Shown here: positions 2,347-10,248 of the stretch, one piece after another
How the letters are laid out: each line of letters opens with the position of its first letter
Position numbering within the stretch: the first letter of the stretch is position 1
NCBI GenBank assembly: GCA_005888735.1
Contig: VBBN01000009.1
Coordinates: 697 to 64,696 of the forward strand
Reading direction: 5' to 3'
DNA length: 64,000 nucleotides
DNA from: Candidatus Bathyarchaeota archaeon
GTDB taxonomy: Archaea > Thermoproteota > Bathyarchaeia > 40CM-2-53-6
Program-made: the position numbers and the translations under genes
Notes under the pieces: model-generated
Database searches by the model: none
What the model was told of the DNA's origin: nothing
What the model saw: the letters and a program-made list of their open reading frames with translations, nothing else

Positions 2347-3495
2347 TCAGATGATCTCTCGGGTGAGAGCTTCTCTGAATTTGACCCTGCAGTCCTGGCA
2401 CTGGAACAGTCCGATGAGGACGTTCTTCTTCGACTTTCCGCCCTTAAGCTCCCACACCTTCACAGGCTTGGGAACGTCAGCTCCGCATTTTGGACAGACT
2501 ACCTTGTAGAATTGTGTGGGCGGGGTCAAGCTGACCGTTGCGAGATCAGAGGCCACGGAGGGGATTCCTGCAGACGCATCAGTAGTACCGATTGTTGGTT
2601 GTAGAGCAGATGAATCATCGGTAACTACCACTGAGGAAGCGTCAACAGAAGGTATGTCGTCGACCACTTTCACCATCAGAGCTTCATCCGCGCCAGTGGT
2701 CTCAACGATGTCGACTGTGGGTATGGTCTGGGTTGCTTCGTCTATACTAGCCTCAATAGGCTCGCTGGCGGGGCTGTCAATAATGAGGCCCAGATCAGTT
2801 GTTGCCACAGCGACGGGTGCGGGTGACATTGGAAAGATCGGTCCAACCACTCTGTCTTGAGGGGTTGGTTCTGTTTCAGGCGCGTTTGCTGACTGAGGGT
2901 TTGGAATCGACGTAGGAGTTGGTTGCTGGCCGGAAGGAGCAGCAATGTAGGCTGGGATGCTGGGAGTGGGTGAGGTCGGTTCAGGGGTGAACCTGAGCGC
3001 TGTTTGGGGAGTAGCCGTAACCGTGGGGTTCTGTTGAGGGGGGGTGAGGAGTGGGGTGCTCTCTGTTGCTGCCGAAGGTCGGTTCCAGTCTGCGCTTGGA
3101 CCCGTCCGAGGGGCTGCTGCTTGTTTGAACTCCGAGGGAGTCAGTGGCCTTGCCTCAATGTGAGACAAGGTGGCAATCATTGCCCTGATTTCTTCGATGC
3201 TGTGGAGGTTGCGTTCGAGCAGGCCTTTGAACTCTTCTCTCTGTTGGCGGTATTCGCCGTCGTTGACTTCACCTGTGACATATTTGGTTTCCAGTGTCAA
3301 CAGTCTCTGTGGAGTGCTTGCGATCTGGTCCTTTGTCTCTTTGAGGTGCTCATTGAGGTTGTAGCCTAGAACGTTGATTCTGTCTTGGAGTTCTTGGGAT
3401 GCTCTTCCGTAGTCCTCGTGGATAGCGCGCATTTTCTCTTTGTAGCCGTTAATTTCGCCGATCAGCTTCTCGAGTGTTAGGTCGTTTAGTCCCAT
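2347..3495 (-). CDS. CdvA-like coiled-coil protein with C-terminal zinc ribbon
   Basis: This 382-residue protein has an N-terminal helical coiled coil (about 1-115), a long Pro/Thr/Ser-rich disordered linker (about 120-325) and a C-terminal zinc ribbon (CPKCG and CQDC, about 335-370). The coiled coil contains LETKYVTGEVNDGEYRQQ, resembling the break motif of CdvA (F-S-V-G-D-I-x4-Y-E) in the gene at 4582. It is also clearly related to the gene at 59492. It is divergent from the cdv cluster, sharing the 3496-3890 intergenic region. I infer a role linked to the division machinery. No enzymatic domain is seen. Confidence 0.6.
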   Translation of the reverse strand: MGLNDLTLEKLIGEINGYKEKMRAIHEDYGRASQELQDRINVLGYNLNEHLKETKDQIASTPQRLLTLETKYVTGEVNDGEYRQQREEFKGLLERNLHSIEEIRAMIATLSHIEARPLTPSEFKQAAAPRTGPSADWNRPSAATESTPLLTPPQQNPTVTATPQTALRFTPEPTSPTPSIPAYIAAPSGQQPTPTSIPNPQSANAPETEPTPQDRVVGPIFPMSPAPVAVATTDLGLIIDSPASEPIEASIDEATQTIPTVDIVETTGADEALMVKVVDDIPSVDASSVVVTDDSSALQPTIGTTDASAGIPSVASDLATVSLTPPTQFYKVVCPKCGADVPKPVKVWELKGGKSKKNVLIGLFQCQDCRVKFREALTREII

Positions 3496-3779: not shown

Positions 3780-3890
3780 CATCTCTAGAATCTGGGAATC
3801 ACTCCATGTGCCAAATCAACACATTGCGTGTCAAGAACTCACTTGGCACCGCCCCAGGGTGTAGACGGCTCAAAGAGGAAGAAAGTCCGA

Positions 3891-4538
3891 ATGTCGTTCA
3901 AGTCCATCAAAAATTGGGACCGAGAGCAAGGCGCACCTTTGCTCTCGAAACTCGGAGAGCGCGTCCATCACCAAGAACCTCTCAAAGAACGGATCAACCA
4001 AGTCATCTACAAGCTCAGGGTAAACCAGAACCGGCTCGAGGGAGCTAATCTCAAGACACAACAGCACGACAAGTCTCTGTTCGACAAGTGCGTCGCAGCT
4101 CAAATGTCCAAAGACAATGCGAGGGCCACCATGTATGCCAATGAGATTGCTGAAATACGGAAAATGGCAAAAGTCACACTCCGGAGCGAACTGGCGCTGG
4201 AACAAGTGATCCTCAGGCTCGAGACGATCGAAGAGTTTGGAGATGTCGCATCACTGATGGGACCAGTCGCCGGGGTTGTCCGATCGATAAAGAACCAGAT
4301 AACCGGTGTCATCCCACAAGTCGGCTACGAGCTAGGCGAGATTTCAGAAACACTGAGCGGTGTAGTAATGGAGGTCGGCGAAGCGACTGGCACAACCTAT
4401 GACATGGAAACCTCCAACCCAGAAGCCCAGAAGATACTCGGAGAAGCCAACACAATAGCAGAACAAAGGATGCGCGAAAAATTCCCGGAGTTACCCAGCT
4501 CCGCCAGCGCACTGGCAGAGCCGACGATCCCTAGGTAG
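3891..4538 (+). CDS. cdvB2: CdvB paralog (ESCRT-III-like), no winged helix
   Basis: This 215-residue Snf7-type protein has LKERINQVIYKLRVNQNRLE (helix 1) and the ANEIAEIRKMAK...LALEQVILRLETIEEFGD helix 2/3 region typical of CdvB. The C-terminus carries REKFPELP, a MIM2-like motif of the kind that binds the MIT domain of CdvC/Vps4. It ends without the winged helix present in the CdvB at 5330. ESCRT-III proteins polymerise on membranes and constrict the division neck. I choose ATG 3891 because a purine-rich GAGGAAGAAAG stretch precedes it. It is the first gene of the cdv cluster. Confidence 0.92.
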   Translation: MSFKSIKNWDREQGAPLLSKLGERVHHQEPLKERINQVIYKLRVNQNRLEGANLKTQQHDKSLFDKCVAAQMSKDNARATMYANEIAEIRKMAKVTLRSELALEQVILRLETIEEFGDVASLMGPVAGVVRSIKNQITGVIPQVGYELGEISETLSGVVMEVGEATGTTYDMETSNPEAQKILGEANTIAEQRMREKFPELPSSASALAEPTIPR

Positions 4539-4581: not shown

Positions 4582-5292
4582 ATGACGATAACACTAGACC
4601 AAGTCCGACGGTTCCTCGGGAGACCACTTCAAGACCCCTACGGACGAGCGTATGGGAAGGTTGTAGGAATATCCGCCAATCTTCGAGATGAAATCATTGC
4701 CGTAGGCGTAGAGGTGGGAAACGGCGAGTTTGTCCAATGCCCCGGCGACAGGCTCAGCATCTCCACAGACAGTCTCGTTCTACTTCCCGCCTGGAAACAG
4801 GAGGCTGATGACTTCCGGAAGGAGTTCGAGATCGTTACGAGACGCTTGAAGGCCCTCGACGAGCTCTTCAGCGTCGGCGATATTCAACGAGACGTCTATG
4901 AGGATCTCCGAAAACAGCACGAAGACGCCATCAACCAGCTCAAAGCGAAGAGGGCGGAGATTCTTGAGACTCTCAGCCAAAGGACTGGAACACTGACCAC
5001 GCAGCTCCGCCAGCTACAGACACACCTTGCAGGCAACAAGATGCTCCACGCCTCAGGCGAGTTCGACGATCTCAGCTACAAAGCAGCTAGCGAGGCAATA
5101 GACACTGGACTCGTACGGGCCATGGCAGAGAAGAAGGAAGTAGACACCATATTCTCGTATCTAGGCAAGCTTGACACAGCGAATCCTCCCTCATCCCAGT
5201 CAATCTCGCAGCCAGCCCAACCAGTCCAGCCTGCACCAACACCTTCCCAGTCCAAAGACGGCGTTCTGGTTCTCCACGTGAGGGAAGGCTAG
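4582..5292 (+). CDS. cdvA: Cell division protein CdvA
   Basis: This 236-residue protein has an N-terminal PRC-barrel-like domain (about 1-75, with LGRPLQDPYGRAYGKVVGI), a central coiled coil (about 75-190) and a Pro/Ser/Gln-rich linker. It ends in KDGVLVLHVREG, matching the E3B peptide by which CdvA recruits the winged helix of CdvB. CdvA marks the division site and binds membrane and DNA in crenarchaea. GAAGGA just upstream of ATG 4582 serves as the ribosome binding site. It lies between two cdvB genes with short gaps. Confidence 0.93.
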   Translation: MTITLDQVRRFLGRPLQDPYGRAYGKVVGISANLRDEIIAVGVEVGNGEFVQCPGDRLSISTDSLVLLPAWKQEADDFRKEFEIVTRRLKALDELFSVGDIQRDVYEDLRKQHEDAINQLKAKRAEILETLSQRTGTLTTQLRQLQTHLAGNKMLHASGEFDDLSYKAASEAIDTGLVRAMAEKKEVDTIFSYLGKLDTANPPSSQSISQPAQPVQPAPTPSQSKDGVLVLHVREG

Positions 5293-5329
5293 GAGGTTCC
5301 TAGGTCTGTTCAGAAAGCTGGAGGAGAGG

Positions 5330-6103
5330 ATGCATTCAATCCCCCTCAAAGAGCGAATAGCCCAGGCCCTCTGGCGGCTCAACTCACAGAAAGACAAGCT
5401 TGAGCACATGTCCACAAGGCTCCAGCAGCGCGACAAGGAGATGTTCCAGCGATGCATCGGAGCCCAGCTCTCCAAGGACAATGCTCACGCCGCACTGTAC
5501 GCAAACGAATGCGCAGAGATACGCAAGATGGCCCATCTGACAATGAGTAGCGAACTAGCTCTCGAGCGCGTAATCCTACGCTTACAAACAATCGAAGAGT
5601 TCGGCGACGTAATGGCCCAGCTCGCACTGGTTATCGGTGTGGTGCGGGAGACCCGGGGGAGAATAGCGGGCGTCATCCCGGAGGTTGCAGGGGAACTCGG
5701 CGAGGTCAACGAAATGCTCAGCGACATGAGCCTTGAGACAGGCCAGATTCAAGACCAAGGCGTGGACATGCAAGTGTCCAGCTCCGAGGCTCGAAAAGTC
5801 CTCGAAGAATCGAGTGCAATAGCCAGCCAGCAAATGAAAGAACGTTTTCCAGAACTACCGCTCCCTGAAGCACGCGCGTCGGCAACAGAAGTGCGGGTTC
5901 CAGTCGCCGTCACGGCAGGTGGTGAAGAAGAGATTCCCGGCCTACCTAGCGTACCTCTCGAACAGAGACTTTTCGACTATATCAGAAGCCACAACGGGGA
6001 ATTGACAATCAATTCCTGCGCGTCAGACCTGACTGTCTCACCGGACGACGTGCGCCGTTCTCTCCAGAAACTAAAGGATGACGGAAAAGTAGTCACGGAC
6101 TGA
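5330..6103 (+). CDS. cdvB: CdvB (ESCRT-III core protein with C-terminal winged helix)
   Basis: This 257-residue protein has an ESCRT-III core at about 1-165. MIM2-like motifs FPELPLPE (173-180) and PGLPSVP (203-209) can bind CdvC. A C-terminal winged helix (about 210-257) matches the domain that docks on the E3B tail of CdvA. ATG 5330 is preceded by GGAGGAG. An in-frame CTG at 5306 lies 8 nt after a strong GGAGGT and would add MFRKLEER, so the true start could be there. CdvA and CdvC flank it, the standard crenarchaeal order. Confidence 0.95.
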   Translation: MHSIPLKERIAQALWRLNSQKDKLEHMSTRLQQRDKEMFQRCIGAQLSKDNAHAALYANECAEIRKMAHLTMSSELALERVILRLQTIEEFGDVMAQLALVIGVVRETRGRIAGVIPEVAGELGEVNEMLSDMSLETGQIQDQGVDMQVSSSEARKVLEESSAIASQQMKERFPELPLPEARASATEVRVPVAVTAGGEEEIPGLPSVPLEQRLFDYIRSHNGELTINSCASDLTVSPDDVRRSLQKLKDDGKVVTD

Positions 6104-6143: not shown

Positions 6144-7307
6144 TTGGGGGTAAAGGAAATCTCGGCCTCGGAAGAACTGGAATCGCTTGCAGTAAGATTT
6201 GCGAATGAAGCAATCGAGCTTGAACGAAAGGGATCAAAGCGAATAGCCGTCACCAAGTACCAGCGAGCAGTCGAGCTGCTCCTCAAGCTATGCTCCCTCT
6301 ATCCCACTGCACCCCAAAACAAGGTCTACATGGAACACGCCGAAGCTTACAAGAAGAGGGTAAAGGAACTCCAATCCGGCTCTGCATCTATCGACCATCC
6401 AGCCGAGGCCCCCGACCTTAGGGATTCCAAGAGCATCAAGTTGGACCAATGGGTTCTGACGGAAAAGCCTGACATTAGCTGGGATGAAATAGCGGGGCTT
6501 GAACGGCCCAAACGAGCCATCGAAGAGGCTATAATCTTCCCGGTCCGAAGGCCCGACCTTTTCCCGCTCGGCTGGCCAAGGGGAATACTCTTCTTTGGCC
6601 CACCAGGATGCGGAAAGACACTCCTCGCCGCCGCAATTGCCAGCGAGATCAAGGGAGTCTTCTTCTGCGCGGACGCTGCGTCCTTGATGTCAAAGTGGCT
6701 GGGCGAGTCCGAGCGCAACGTTCAACAGCTCTTCTCCAAAGCACGAGAAGTATCGGAGAACACGCAGCCTGCGATTGTCTTCCTGGACGAGGTTGACTCC
6801 TTGATGGGAGTTAGGGGCGAAGAGGTGGGCGGTGAGGTCCGAGTCAGAAACCAGTTCCTCAAGGAAATGGACGGTATCCTCGACAAGAAGAAGAAATTCC
6901 ACGTATACGTCATAGGGGCGACTAACAAGCCGTGGGTCCTCGACGAGCCTTTCATTCGACGCTTCCAGAAACGAATCTACATTCCCCTTCCAGATATCAA
7001 AGCGCGCATGGACATGTTCCAAGTCTACTCCCATGATCTGAAGTTCGGCAACAATTTGGACTTTGCCGAGCTGGCCCGGATGACCGAGGGATATTCCGGG
7101 GGGGACATTCGGGACTTGTTCCAGTCAACGCAGATGAAAGTTGTCAGGGACTTTTTCCAGTCTGGCAGAGCGGGGGACAATAGCGCCACGCCGGACCCTA
7201 TTCGAATGGAGGACTTTCAGTCAATCCTAGCAGCCCGCAGGCCGAGCGTCTCCTCGTCTAACCTGAAGCGCTACTTCGACTGGGACGAGACCTTCAAGGC
7301 AAGCTAG
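6144..7307 (+). CDS. cdvC: CdvC, Vps4-type AAA ATPase
   Basis: This 387-residue protein has an N-terminal MIT domain (about 5-80, three helices, LAVRFANEAIELERKG) and an AAA module with Walker A GPPGCGKT and Walker B AIVFLDEVDSLM. The arginine-finger region is RRFQKR. It disassembles ESCRT-III filaments by gripping the MIM motifs of CdvB. Length is normal for the family. The start is TTG 6144; no good Shine-Dalgarno precedes it. It follows cdvB by 40 nt. Confidence 0.96.
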   Translation: MGVKEISASEELESLAVRFANEAIELERKGSKRIAVTKYQRAVELLLKLCSLYPTAPQNKVYMEHAEAYKKRVKELQSGSASIDHPAEAPDLRDSKSIKLDQWVLTEKPDISWDEIAGLERPKRAIEEAIIFPVRRPDLFPLGWPRGILFFGPPGCGKTLLAAAIASEIKGVFFCADAASLMSKWLGESERNVQQLFSKAREVSENTQPAIVFLDEVDSLMGVRGEEVGGEVRVRNQFLKEMDGILDKKKKFHVYVIGATNKPWVLDEPFIRRFQKRIYIPLPDIKARMDMFQVYSHDLKFGNNLDFAELARMTEGYSGGDIRDLFQSTQMKVVRDFFQSGRAGDNSATPDPIRMEDFQSILAARRPSVSSSNLKRYFDWDETFKAS

Positions 7308-7319
7308 GACGGAACCCGG

Positions 7320-7787
7320 TTGAACTTGGACGGAACTGACCTGCGAATCCTGGCAGAGCTGGCCGAGAATTCCAAGGCCTCATTTGTCGAGATAGGCCGG
7401 AAGCTAGGGCTCCACCCCAACGTGGTCGGGTACAGAGTGAACCGGCTTGAAGACTCCGGAATCATACGCGAGTACACCACCCTAATTGACTTCTCAAAGC
7501 TAGGACTGTCAGAACAGGTCCTAGTTGCAGCAAACTTTCCATCCGCCGGGTCCCGAGATGACATTCTCAAACAAATTTCCGAGATTCCTGGAACTGTTAA
7601 CATCATCAGCTCACTAGGCTCGCCTGAAGGGCTGCTGTTCATAGTCGCACGGAACAAAGAGGACGTCAACGCAGCGCTCTCAAAACTCAGGTCCCTCAAC
7701 ATGGATATTCACTTCGCTTCCTCTGTTATACGAACATATGACGAGGGACGTCTCGGGACGTTCCTGAGAACCATAGCGGGGTCGTAG
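7320..7787 (+). CDS. Lrp/AsnC family transcriptional regulator
   Basis: This 155-residue protein has an N-terminal winged helix-turn-helix (LDGTDLRILAELAENSKAS...IGRKLGLHPNVVGYRVNRLE) and an alpha/beta C-terminal ligand domain. It starts at TTG 7320, only 12 nt after cdvC, so it is probably co-transcribed. Lrp proteins usually autoregulate and control neighbouring genes. It may regulate the cdv cluster or the ABC pair that follows. Confidence 0.88.
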   Translation: MNLDGTDLRILAELAENSKASFVEIGRKLGLHPNVVGYRVNRLEDSGIIREYTTLIDFSKLGLSEQVLVAANFPSAGSRDDILKQISEIPGTVNIISSLGSPEGLLFIVARNKEDVNAALSKLRSLNMDIHFASSVIRTYDEGRLGTFLRTIAGS

Positions 7788-7803: not shown

Positions 7804-8271
7804 TTGGAAAAGCCCGGCTGGGTTCCCATCGTAATCTCTGGAGTCCTCCCTCGAGGTGTGCCTGACTTGTTCGCTATGGTTATTGTCCTAGCTGCCAGTC
7901 TCAACGCGTCCCTGGGCTCAACGGTCCTGGCAGGCTTGGGGATTGGGCCTGCACTGTTGGTGCTATCTGTTATGGCATCGTGCGCTTTGGCAGCCTCGTC
8001 GAATAGTGCTCGACGGCTTAGGGAAGAGCTTGCATTATTCGCATATGGTAGCTCTACACGGATGGTCGGGCTCAGGGGGTTTCTGAGAGGAGTTGCTTGC
8101 GTGTTTCTCGCTCTGCTCTTCTACATTGCATTAGAGGCGAGAACCTTAGGCTTGTTTTCTGGTTCGATGATCATAATCTGTCTCGCGATTGTGGTCGGGG
8201 GCGTTTCCTATGCTCTTCCTATCCTCTTCCGGACTCGGTCCTTGGACTTCGTGGAGAACTACAAGGGGTAG
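7804..8271 (+). CDS. Small FtsX/MacB-like permease (about four TM segments)
   Basis: This 155-residue hydrophobic protein has TM segments near 18-35, 40-64, 95-115 and 120-140. The segment ARRLREELALFAYGSSTRMVGLRGFLRG resembles the coupling region of FtsX/MacB permeases (R-E-x-x-L-x-x-x-G-x-S). It is about half the usual permease length and lacks a large extracellular domain. It starts at TTG 7804 and is immediately followed by the ABC ATPase, so the two likely form one transporter-like complex. Assignment to the FtsX fold is tentative. Confidence 0.55.
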   Translation: MEKPGWVPIVISGVLPRGVPDLFAMVIVLAASLNASLGSTVLAGLGIGPALLVLSVMASCALAASSNSARRLREELALFAYGSSTRMVGLRGFLRGVACVFLALLFYIALEARTLGLFSGSMIIICLAIVVGGVSYALPILFRTRSLDFVENYKG

Positions 8272-8275
8272 CAAG

Positions 8276-8971
8276 ATGACCAGTCTTCTGGAAACAGTCA
8301 CAGTAACGATTGACTATCCGTACTCGGAAGGGGTTCTCAAACTCTACGACGAAGGCGTCTCCATGAAAATTGGCAAAGGAGACTTTACCGCGGTCCTGGG
8401 AGGCTCAGGGTGGGGGAAGTCAACACTTGTCAACCTCGTGCTGGGGCTGGAGAAGCCGAGCGCTGGAGCAGTGTATTTCAATGGGGAAGACGTGACCCGG
8501 CGTTCGTTCGTAAAACGATGCTCACTCGTCCGGACTGCGGCAGTGTTCCAGCGACCAACAGCCATTCCCCAGTTGACGGTTGCGCAAAACCTCAGCGTAG
8601 CACTGTCGTTCGCTTCCGTTCCGAGAAAGGAGCGGGATGAAAGGGTCCGGGAGTCCCTAGGTTTCTTCGGGCTTGAGATGTTGTCACGTTCCTACCCCGA
8701 CGCCCTCAGTGCGGGGCAGCGTAGAAGAGTCGACTTGGCCCGAGCGCTCGCTGTCCGCCCAGATTTCCTAGTTGTTGATGAGCCCACAGGTGACTTGGAC
8801 AGTTCGGCTTCAAACCTCGTCATGCCTCTGCTTCGAGGCTTGAACCATGACCATGGCATGGCGATCCTCATGACGACTGCTCTTCCAAGATGCGCCGCGG
8901 TAGCGAAGAGTCTGCTCCATCTCAAGCCGCCTGTGTTCGTCAGCTCTGAAAATAGGATGGTTGGACACTAG
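8276..8971 (+). CDS. ABC ATPase of FtsE/LolD/MacB type with degenerate H-loop
   Basis: This 231-residue protein has Walker A GGSGWGKST, Q-loop FQRPTAIPQLTVAQNL, signature LSAGQ and Walker B FLVVDEPTGDLD, the last typical of the FtsE/LolD/MacB group. The switch histidine normally seen as T-H-D is absent (MTTALPRCA), so hydrolysis may be slow or regulated. ATG 8276 begins 5 nt after the permease stop, and the third cdvB starts 3 nt after its own stop. That tight packing links it to the division genes. Confidence 0.85.
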   Translation: MTSLLETVTVTIDYPYSEGVLKLYDEGVSMKIGKGDFTAVLGGSGWGKSTLVNLVLGLEKPSAGAVYFNGEDVTRRSFVKRCSLVRTAAVFQRPTAIPQLTVAQNLSVALSFASVPRKERDERVRESLGFFGLEMLSRSYPDALSAGQRRRVDLARALAVRPDFLVVDEPTGDLDSSASNLVMPLLRGLNHDHGMAILMTTALPRCAAVAKSLLHLKPPVFVSSENRMVGH

Positions 8972-8973
8972 GA

Positions 8974-9582
8974 TTGTTCAAGGAGAACCACTCCCTGGCT
9001 GACAGGTTCCGTGAGGCCCTCAAGCCTACCCCGATGAAGAGGAGAATACAGCTGGCGAGCAACCGGCTGAGGCTGCAGATGGGAAGACTCGACAAGACCG
9101 TTAGCCAGATGGAAGCGCGAGACAAGACGCTCTACGAGAGATGCGTCAAGTCCCTGGCCGCCAGAGATGTTCAAGCCGCAACACTGTTCGCCAACGAGTG
9201 CGTGGAAATCAGGAAGCTTGTCAAGACAAGCTTGAGCAGTCAGATATGCCTGGAACAAGTGCTCCTGCGACTGGAGACTATCGAACAGTTTGGCGACATG
9301 GTCAAGAGCATGGACCAGGTCAAAGGAATCATCGGCCTAGTTAGAGGCGACTTGGAAGGAAAGCTTCCCGAAATCTCGACCAACCTTGCAGACATTGAAG
9401 ACTCTCTCGGAAGTGTTACCGTGGAGATCGGCCAGGCGGTGGATTCTGAAGGCCCACTCATCCCGGCGAGCGACGAGTCCGCCCGTGTCTTGAAGGAAGC
9501 GGACGCGATGGCCGAGCAGAAGATGAAGGAAAAGTTCCCGGAGATTCCGGCAATTATCAACGATCCCGCGCGTGTAAGGTAG
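8974..9582 (+). CDS. cdvB3: Third CdvB paralog (ESCRT-III-like), no winged helix
   Basis: This 202-residue ESCRT-III-like protein has helix 1 MKRRIQLASNRLRLQM, then the ANECVEIRKLVKTSLSSQICLEQVLLRLETIEQFGD core. It ends in KEKFPEIPAI, a MIM2-like tail. The winged helix is absent. It starts at TTG 8974, directly after the ABC ATPase, and is followed 7 nt later by a second cdvA-like gene. The pair looks like a duplicated CdvA/CdvB module. It is about equally diverged from the two other CdvB proteins in the cluster. Confidence 0.9.
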   Translation: MFKENHSLADRFREALKPTPMKRRIQLASNRLRLQMGRLDKTVSQMEARDKTLYERCVKSLAARDVQAATLFANECVEIRKLVKTSLSSQICLEQVLLRLETIEQFGDMVKSMDQVKGIIGLVRGDLEGKLPEISTNLADIEDSLGSVTVEIGQAVDSEGPLIPASDESARVLKEADAMAEQKMKEKFPEIPAIINDPARVR

Positions 9583-9588
9583 GAACTG

Positions 9589-10248
9589 GTGCTCACCCCG
9601 GAGCTCGAGACAAAGGCGCTGCTTGGACGCGGAGTCAACGACATCTACGGACGGTTCGTCGGGCGGGTCATAGGAATCGACCGGAATCCTTTCGGAGAGA
9701 TGGAAGGCGTCCAGGTAGAATCTGTTGGAAACAGCATCATCACCTTCAAAGCCCGACAGATAGCCCTCACACCGAAAGCCGTCACAGTCACCCCCGAATG
9801 GAAACTGGAGGTAGAGGACGTGGTCTCGGAACTCTCGACGCTAAGAAAACGTGTCACCGCGCTGGAGCAGTTGAACGATGCGAGGGAGATAGACGGGGAG
9901 ATTTATGCCGAGATTTTGGAAGCCCAGAGGGCTGGCTACTTGGAGAGGGTGAAGATGGGAGAGGCGCTTGCTGGATCTGTAAAATCGCAGCTTGGAACCG
10001 TCGCCGGGCAGATAGCAAGTCTCACTAAACACTTGGTCAATGCCAAACTGGACCATAAGAGCGGTCAGCTGGACGATGCAGCGTTGAAACTTGCGCAGAG
10101 TTCTATCGAGCCCAGCCTCCGGCCGCTGATAGGAGAAAAGAACGATCTCGCTCTAGCGCTCAGGAAGCTGGAGGGCGTTCTTCCCTCGCGGGTTTCACTA
10201 AGCGAAACGGATTCACCGTTGCCGAGCGCAGCCAAGTCCGCTCGCTGA
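9589..10248 (+). CDS. cdvA2: Second CdvA paralog, lacking the CdvB-recruiting tail
   Basis: This 219-residue protein mirrors CdvA: an N-terminal PRC-like barrel (LLGRGVNDIYGRFVGRVIGI), a coiled coil, and a segment SGQLDDAALKLAQSSIEP that aligns with SGEFDDLSYKAASEAIDT of the CdvA at 4582. The C-terminus (PLPSAAKSAR) lacks the hydrophobic E3B peptide, so it should not recruit CdvB in the usual way. It starts at GTG 9589. It closes the cdv cluster, and a separate promoter follows. Confidence 0.88.
   Translation: MLTPELETKALLGRGVNDIYGRFVGRVIGIDRNPFGEMEGVQVESVGNSIITFKARQIALTPKAVTVTPEWKLEVEDVVSELSTLRKRVTALEQLNDAREIDGEIYAEILEAQRAGYLERVKMGEALAGSVKSQLGTVAGQIASLTKHLVNAKLDHKSGQLDDAALKLAQSSIEPSLRPLIGEKNDLALALRKLEGVLPSRVSLSETDSPLPSAAKSAR

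Follow-up and report, generated by a model that had tools for sequence, protein, structure and literature searches.

The window analysed here, a stretch of 64,000 nucleotides, lies in a MAG of 2.39 Mb; those of its relatives that have a name are 'Candidatus Bathyarchaeota' MAGs from soil. Between positions 3828 and 10248 it carries, on a single strand and with small gaps, the genes for CdvB1, CdvA, CdvB, CdvC, an AsnC-like protein, a permease, an ABC ATPase, a third ESCRT-III protein (CdvB3) and a second CdvA (CdvA2) (Table 1). Pfam supports the assignments of CdvA, Vps4 with MIT, the AsnC-type HTH, ABC_tran and Snf7. The ABC ATPase, CdvB3 and CdvA2 genes are tightly packed, with gaps of 2 and 6 bases. 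The core of this operon resembles the CdvA-CdvB-CdvB1/B2-CdvC system of Sulfolobus, which also has a PRC-coiled-coil CdvA with an E3B tail, one winged-helix CdvB, Vps4, and additional ESCRT-III paralogues that have MIM2 but lack the winged helix. It differs by the addition of a tailless second CdvA and by the AsnC-like gene and the FtsX-like/ABC pair inserted between CdvC and the third ESCRT-III gene.

Table 1. The cdv operon and its divergent neighbour (positions in the window)
Gene	Position	Strand	Features
CdvB1	3828..4538	+	ESCRT-III paralogue, MIM2 (FPELP), no winged helix; ATG at 3891 likely alternative start
Core CdvA	4582..5292	+	PRC barrel, coiled coil, Pro-rich linker, E3B tail VLVLHVREG; PF18822 66.6 bits
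Core CdvB	5330..6103	+	ESCRT-III, MIM2, C-terminal winged helix; CTG start at 5306 likely, judged from relatives
CdvC/Vps4	6144..7307	+	MIT, AAA, Vps4_C (Pfam)
AsnC/Lrp-like DNA-binding regulator	7320..7787	+	conserved between CdvC and ABC genes
Permease	7804..8271	+	membrane protein with four helices, probably a short FtsX-like (type VII) permease; no large outer loop
ABC ATPase	8276..8971	+	MacB/LolD type, cdv-linked clade; intact Walker A and Walker B, Ala in place of the H-loop His
CdvB3	8974..9582	+	ESCRT-III of the CdvB1/2 class with amphipathic N-terminal helix and MIM2 FPEIP; winged helix absent; TTG start
CdvA2	9589..10248	+	PRC barrel, three-helix coiled coil, no E3B tail; GTG start
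Zinc-ribbon gene (divergent neighbour)	2347..3495	-	CdvA-like coiled coil, long disordered Pro/Thr-rich stretch, C-terminal zinc ribbon

Neighbourhoods were retrieved and annotated from 38 genomes of the window's order, and this set was used for the counts of tails and MIM2 motifs; genome families are labelled f1 to f73, single genomes G and loci L. The same arrangement was found again in about 28 genomes of the order, which shows that the combination of a tailless CdvA2 with CdvB3 is not due to chance. Within family f1, median dN/dS values were 0.035 for CdvA2, 0.024 for CdvB3, 0.043 for CdvA, 0.023 for CdvB and 0.14 for the permease. These ratios indicate that the CdvA2 and CdvB3 genes are under strong purifying selection. 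The in-frame stops seen in CdvA2 matches were only the terminal stop codons of shorter orthologues.

An earlier note on this DNA had described the core CdvA as ending in VLVLHVREG and CdvA2 as lacking such a tail, and both coordinates and sequence proved correct. In the order set, an E3B-like C-terminal end was present in 32 of the 33 core CdvA proteins and in 1 of the 28 CdvA2 proteins, the frequency in shuffled tails being 2-5%; a stricter E3B pattern gave 27/33 and 1/28. Both exceptions come from one genome (G028, locus L053), in which the core CdvA ends in LLPVKFTGTSSL and CdvA2 in PIALQLEG, an E3B-like end. To judge from these two ends, read in one MAG with 7% contamination, it looks as if the docking end had been swapped, or could sit on either paralogue. 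A frameshift was rejected as the cause of the missing core CdvA tail in this genome since the other frames hold no E3B-like end.

The body of CdvA2 has the PRC barrel and the three-helix coiled coil of CdvA, with a score of 26.5 bits against the CdvA coiled coil PF18822, below the cut-off of 30. In the AF2 model, the PRC strands and the three helices were predicted mostly at pLDDT 80-94, and Foldseek related them to the S. islandicus CdvA filament subunit (9s9g/9s9i, TM 0.82). The final 19 residues were disordered (pLDDT around 31), with no strand at the tail, and the E3B tail is absent from 27 of 28 CdvA2 proteins. The S. islandicus filament is held by A90, L94, I100, I149, M153 and I156, and their mutation blocks polymerisation (PMC12818579). 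At these six positions, where S. islandicus has A L I I M I, the window core CdvA reads A L I A M A. The window CdvA2 reads A L I V L K, so that its longitudinal filament interface is hydrophobic at five positions and carries Lys at the sixth. Most CdvA2s have Lys or Trp at position 156, and position 153 is frequently Ala; position 156 is variable among core CdvAs too. The longitudinal face of CdvA2 may thus be altered at positions 156 and 153. Since CdvA-ΔC, deleted of the linker and E3B, still polymerises into filaments in vitro (PMC12818579), co-assembly with CdvA can account for the recruitment of CdvA2.

In phylogenetic trees, CdvA2 formed a single clade (98/92; 100/99 with other classes added) that excludes both core CdvA and the lone Glu-rich CdvA-like proteins. 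This rules out that CdvA2 is the known Glu-rich protein of Bathyarchaeia. Extra CdvA-like proteins occur in Bathyarchaea (e.g. KPV61682.1) and Thermoproteales (arCOG03733, arCOG03734) and are, like CdvA2, CdvA paralogues of TACK archaea (PMC11188069). The bathyarchaeal ones are Glu-rich and lie outside the cdv locus, whereas CdvA2, in trees that cover these bathyarchaeal proteins, is a separate clade and lies inside the operon. Thaumarchaeal Cdv systems of the Nitrosopumilus type likewise have a CdvA without E3B tail and CdvB proteins without winged helix (PMC8970359). However, the thaumarchaeal protein is the sole CdvA, is 270-320 aa long and has its own C-terminus, and CdvA2 does not group with Nitrososphaeria CdvA (separate clade, 100/99). 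Among 397 genomes sampled across the phylum, almost every one from outside the class has a single CdvA (E <= 1e-8). Two genomes of the same phylum outside the class (G260 and G267, family f31) have two CdvA-like genes, one with the E3B-like end SPLVVRLQS. What is new in CdvA2 is the loss of the docking tail in a stable, selected paralogue inside the cdv operon, and such a natural tailless CdvA provides a way to separate the scaffold role of CdvA from its CdvB-recruiting role.

The difference in winged helix between core CdvB and CdvB3 was also borne out. In the window, core CdvB extends about 80 residues beyond MIM2 and CdvB3 extends 10; in the order set the ranges were 71-94 for CdvB, 10-20 for CdvB1 and 9-13 for CdvB3. 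Pfam detects an HTH weakly in the C-terminal extension of core CdvB (15.4 bits). The winged helix is missing from CdvB1 as well, so its absence is not peculiar to CdvB3. FPEIP, the third feature that had been pointed out, is present in the window CdvB3, and a MIM2-like motif was found in 35/35 CdvB3 proteins; in the window protein Snf7 was detected at 29.1 bits (cut-off 27.3). The published CdvB3 class has Snf7 only, without MIM2 (PMC8970359); because the window protein combines the Snf7 fold with MIM2 and lacks the winged helix, as in the CdvB1/B2 class, it is CdvB1/2-like by the published classes and not a 'CdvB3'. Its nearest solved relative is CdvB2 in filaments, at about 42% identity, and its model consists of a helix at residues 6-15 plus the ESCRT-III helices. 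In Sulfolobus, the CdvB ring recruits those CdvB paralogues that lack the winged helix, and they depend on it (PMC11796394), and thaumarchaeal CdvA and CdvB lack both docking parts (PMC8970359). Missing docking parts in CdvB3 are therefore ordinary.

CdvB3 formed one group in every bootstrap tree (97/76), and this group includes the third ESCRT-III gene of families f2, f3 and f4 and of genome G020. There the orthologue lies directly after CdvC or AsnC; no orthologue of the ABC pair was found in these genomes, and CdvA2 is missing from them too. Because CdvB3 orthologues exist in families with neither, CdvB3 is older than the addition of CdvA2 and the ABC genes. The view of CdvB3 and CdvA2 as an obligate pair did not survive this result, and inheritance of the two as one module is ruled out.

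CdvB3 and CdvA2 share a frame with a TAG between them, and they were modelled with AF2 as one chain with the TAG read as a residue. The one-chain model (pTM 0.46, at which the relative placement of the two proteins is uninformative) showed no E3B/winged-helix contact and no confident interface. Absence of such a contact agrees with what had been claimed, neither half of it being present in the two proteins. A novel, direct contact that made CdvA2 and CdvB3 a second pair of scaffold and polymer, acting at a separate time or place, would fit the adjacency of the genes in 28/28 CdvA2 loci. We regard it as quite improbable given that CdvB3 is found without CdvA2 and that no confident interface appeared in the single-chain model.

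The window permease has no Pfam match. It shares its operon position and an RR..EELALFAYG-type motif with its orthologues, which exceed the PF02687 cut-off at loci L053, L054, L127 and L128 (families f5, f6 and f18) and fall slightly under it at L055 and L057. Its profile match to the FtsX-like set was weak (hhalign probability 7%, E 0.005), and the nearest folds to its AF2 model (pLDDT 80.6) were LolC, FtsX and MacB, all at E >= 0.1. The loops are all short. The ABC ATPase scored 99.5 bits against PF00005, contains Walker A, signature and Walker B, has MacB and LolD as PDB relatives, and is of the MacB/LolD/FtsE type. In place of the H-loop His, the cdv-linked ATPases have Ala in f1, Asn in f5/f6 and Arg in f19; those of f18 keep the His, and the Walker motifs are retained. 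As in FtsEX of bacteria and in further type VII ABC systems (MacB, LolCDE), a MacB/LolD-type ATPase adjoins a permease, here a probable FtsX-like one in a division cluster. The present system differs in that the permease has 144-198 aa and no large outer domain, the association is with Cdv/ESCRT-III, and the H-loop His is often replaced.

The cdv-linked ATPases formed one clade, in 99-100% of bootstrap trees, both when compared with other ATPases of their own genomes (paralogues; 99/94) and when the best matches from f2, f3, f4 and G020 were included (99/98). This test rules out that the ABC genes are chance neighbours. The clade covers the window's order plus another two families in the class, with the gene order zinc-ribbon protein, CdvA, permease, ABC in f18 (6 of the 6 genomes read: G204-G207, G210, G211) and CdvA, CdvB, permease, ABC in f19; in both, the CdvA beside the ABC pair carries an E3B-like tail. 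In other classes, 30 CdvA loci were read, and at none does an ABC gene directly adjoin CdvA. At one of them (L228), CdvA and an ABC gene on the opposite strand are about 4 kb apart. CdvA thus has in the ABC complex a real and conserved companion. CdvA2 is present only in genomes with the ABC pair, and within the order both go together. This co-occurrence may reflect few events, and the CdvC tree leaves the family order unresolved.

The earlier note had concluded that CdvA2 and CdvB3 must be recruited by another route, perhaps through the adjacent ABC complex. The premise stands, as the docking halves are absent and the ABC genes are cdv-linked, but a need of CdvB3 for a special route is not supported, in view of the Sulfolobus paralogues that lack the winged helix (PMC11796394) and of the orthologues without CdvA2 or ABC genes. 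Recruitment of both proteins to the membrane by the FtsX-like/ABC complex, replacing the E3B/winged-helix contact, would account for the tight gene row, for the confinement of CdvA2 to genomes with the ABC pair and for the tie of the ATPase clade to CdvA in two further families. We consider it unlikely: in f18 and f19 the ABC pair adjoins a CdvA with an E3B-like tail and hence is no tail substitute, CdvB3 occurs without the pair, and the permease loops are short. Because it also accompanies a tailed CdvA, the complex is more likely to regulate or anchor the CdvA scaffold than to stand in for the tail.

With the anatomy, conservation, orthology and fold class of these proteins established, we infer their co-assembly, route of recruitment and the role of the ABC complex as follows. 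CdvA2 would join CdvA filaments, CdvB3 would copolymerise with ESCRT-III, and the FtsEX-like complex would be functionally tied to CdvA, a reading that we hold with moderate confidence. CdvA2 is a CdvA paralogue in which the filament-forming body is retained but the linker and the CdvB-docking tail are gone, a natural counterpart of CdvA-ΔC. It most likely assembles with or beside CdvA filaments at the membrane, where it would alter the number of CdvB docking tails displayed by the scaffold or supply a second binding partner. CdvB3 would bind the membrane by its amphipathic N-terminal helix, copolymerise with the CdvB ring and be removed by CdvC via MIM2; no mutual E3B/winged-helix contact with CdvA2 would be needed. 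The permease and ATPase would form a membrane complex of the Cdv system that probably acts on CdvA/CdvA2 as FtsEX does on the bacterial divisome and would link envelope and ring. More tentatively, this dedicated complex could bind CdvA (f18, f19) or the tailless CdvA2 (the window's order) and relay envelope signals to the Cdv ring; in that case the principle behind FtsEX would recur on a division polymer that is unrelated.

The added genes might instead do other membrane work than division, such as vesicle budding, envelope repair, or S-layer or lipoprotein handling. Vesicle budding in S. islandicus depends mainly on ESCRT-III-1 and -2 (PMC11796394), and type VII ABC systems do several jobs; the genes, however, stand in one row with the complete core CdvB1-CdvA-CdvB-CdvC across three families, and this possibility appears quite improbable to us. 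A 2024 review names the coupling of archaeal ESCRT division to envelope and S-layer as an open question (PMC7617429). The conserved ABC pair beside CdvA in distant relatives suggests an unrecognised membrane partner of archaeal division, and its presence across distant families makes it a concrete candidate for envelope coupling. Literature searches (CdvA/Bathyarchaeia, FtsEX/archaea/ESCRT, CdvA paralogue/ABC) found no description of the arrangement in the open-access papers covered.

Several minor features of the locus were also recorded. The divergent zinc-ribbon gene exceeds the PF18822 cut-off (31.9 bits), and its position is conserved in family f1; a similar zinc-ribbon protein lies directly upstream of CdvA in f18 (L126 6197-6499). 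A fourth CdvA-like protein, of 135 aa, in the window's genome (G000 C47:50863-51159, L092) is nearest to the coiled coil of the zinc-ribbon gene. The AsnC-like regulator, directly downstream of CdvC, has the same position in family f32 of another class (L226, L227). The apparent CTG start of CdvB recurs at L074, L075, L077, L078, L080, L081, L083 and L089, with GTG at this position in relatives L086 and L087, and a CTG is found at the CdvA2 start in L087 and L088.
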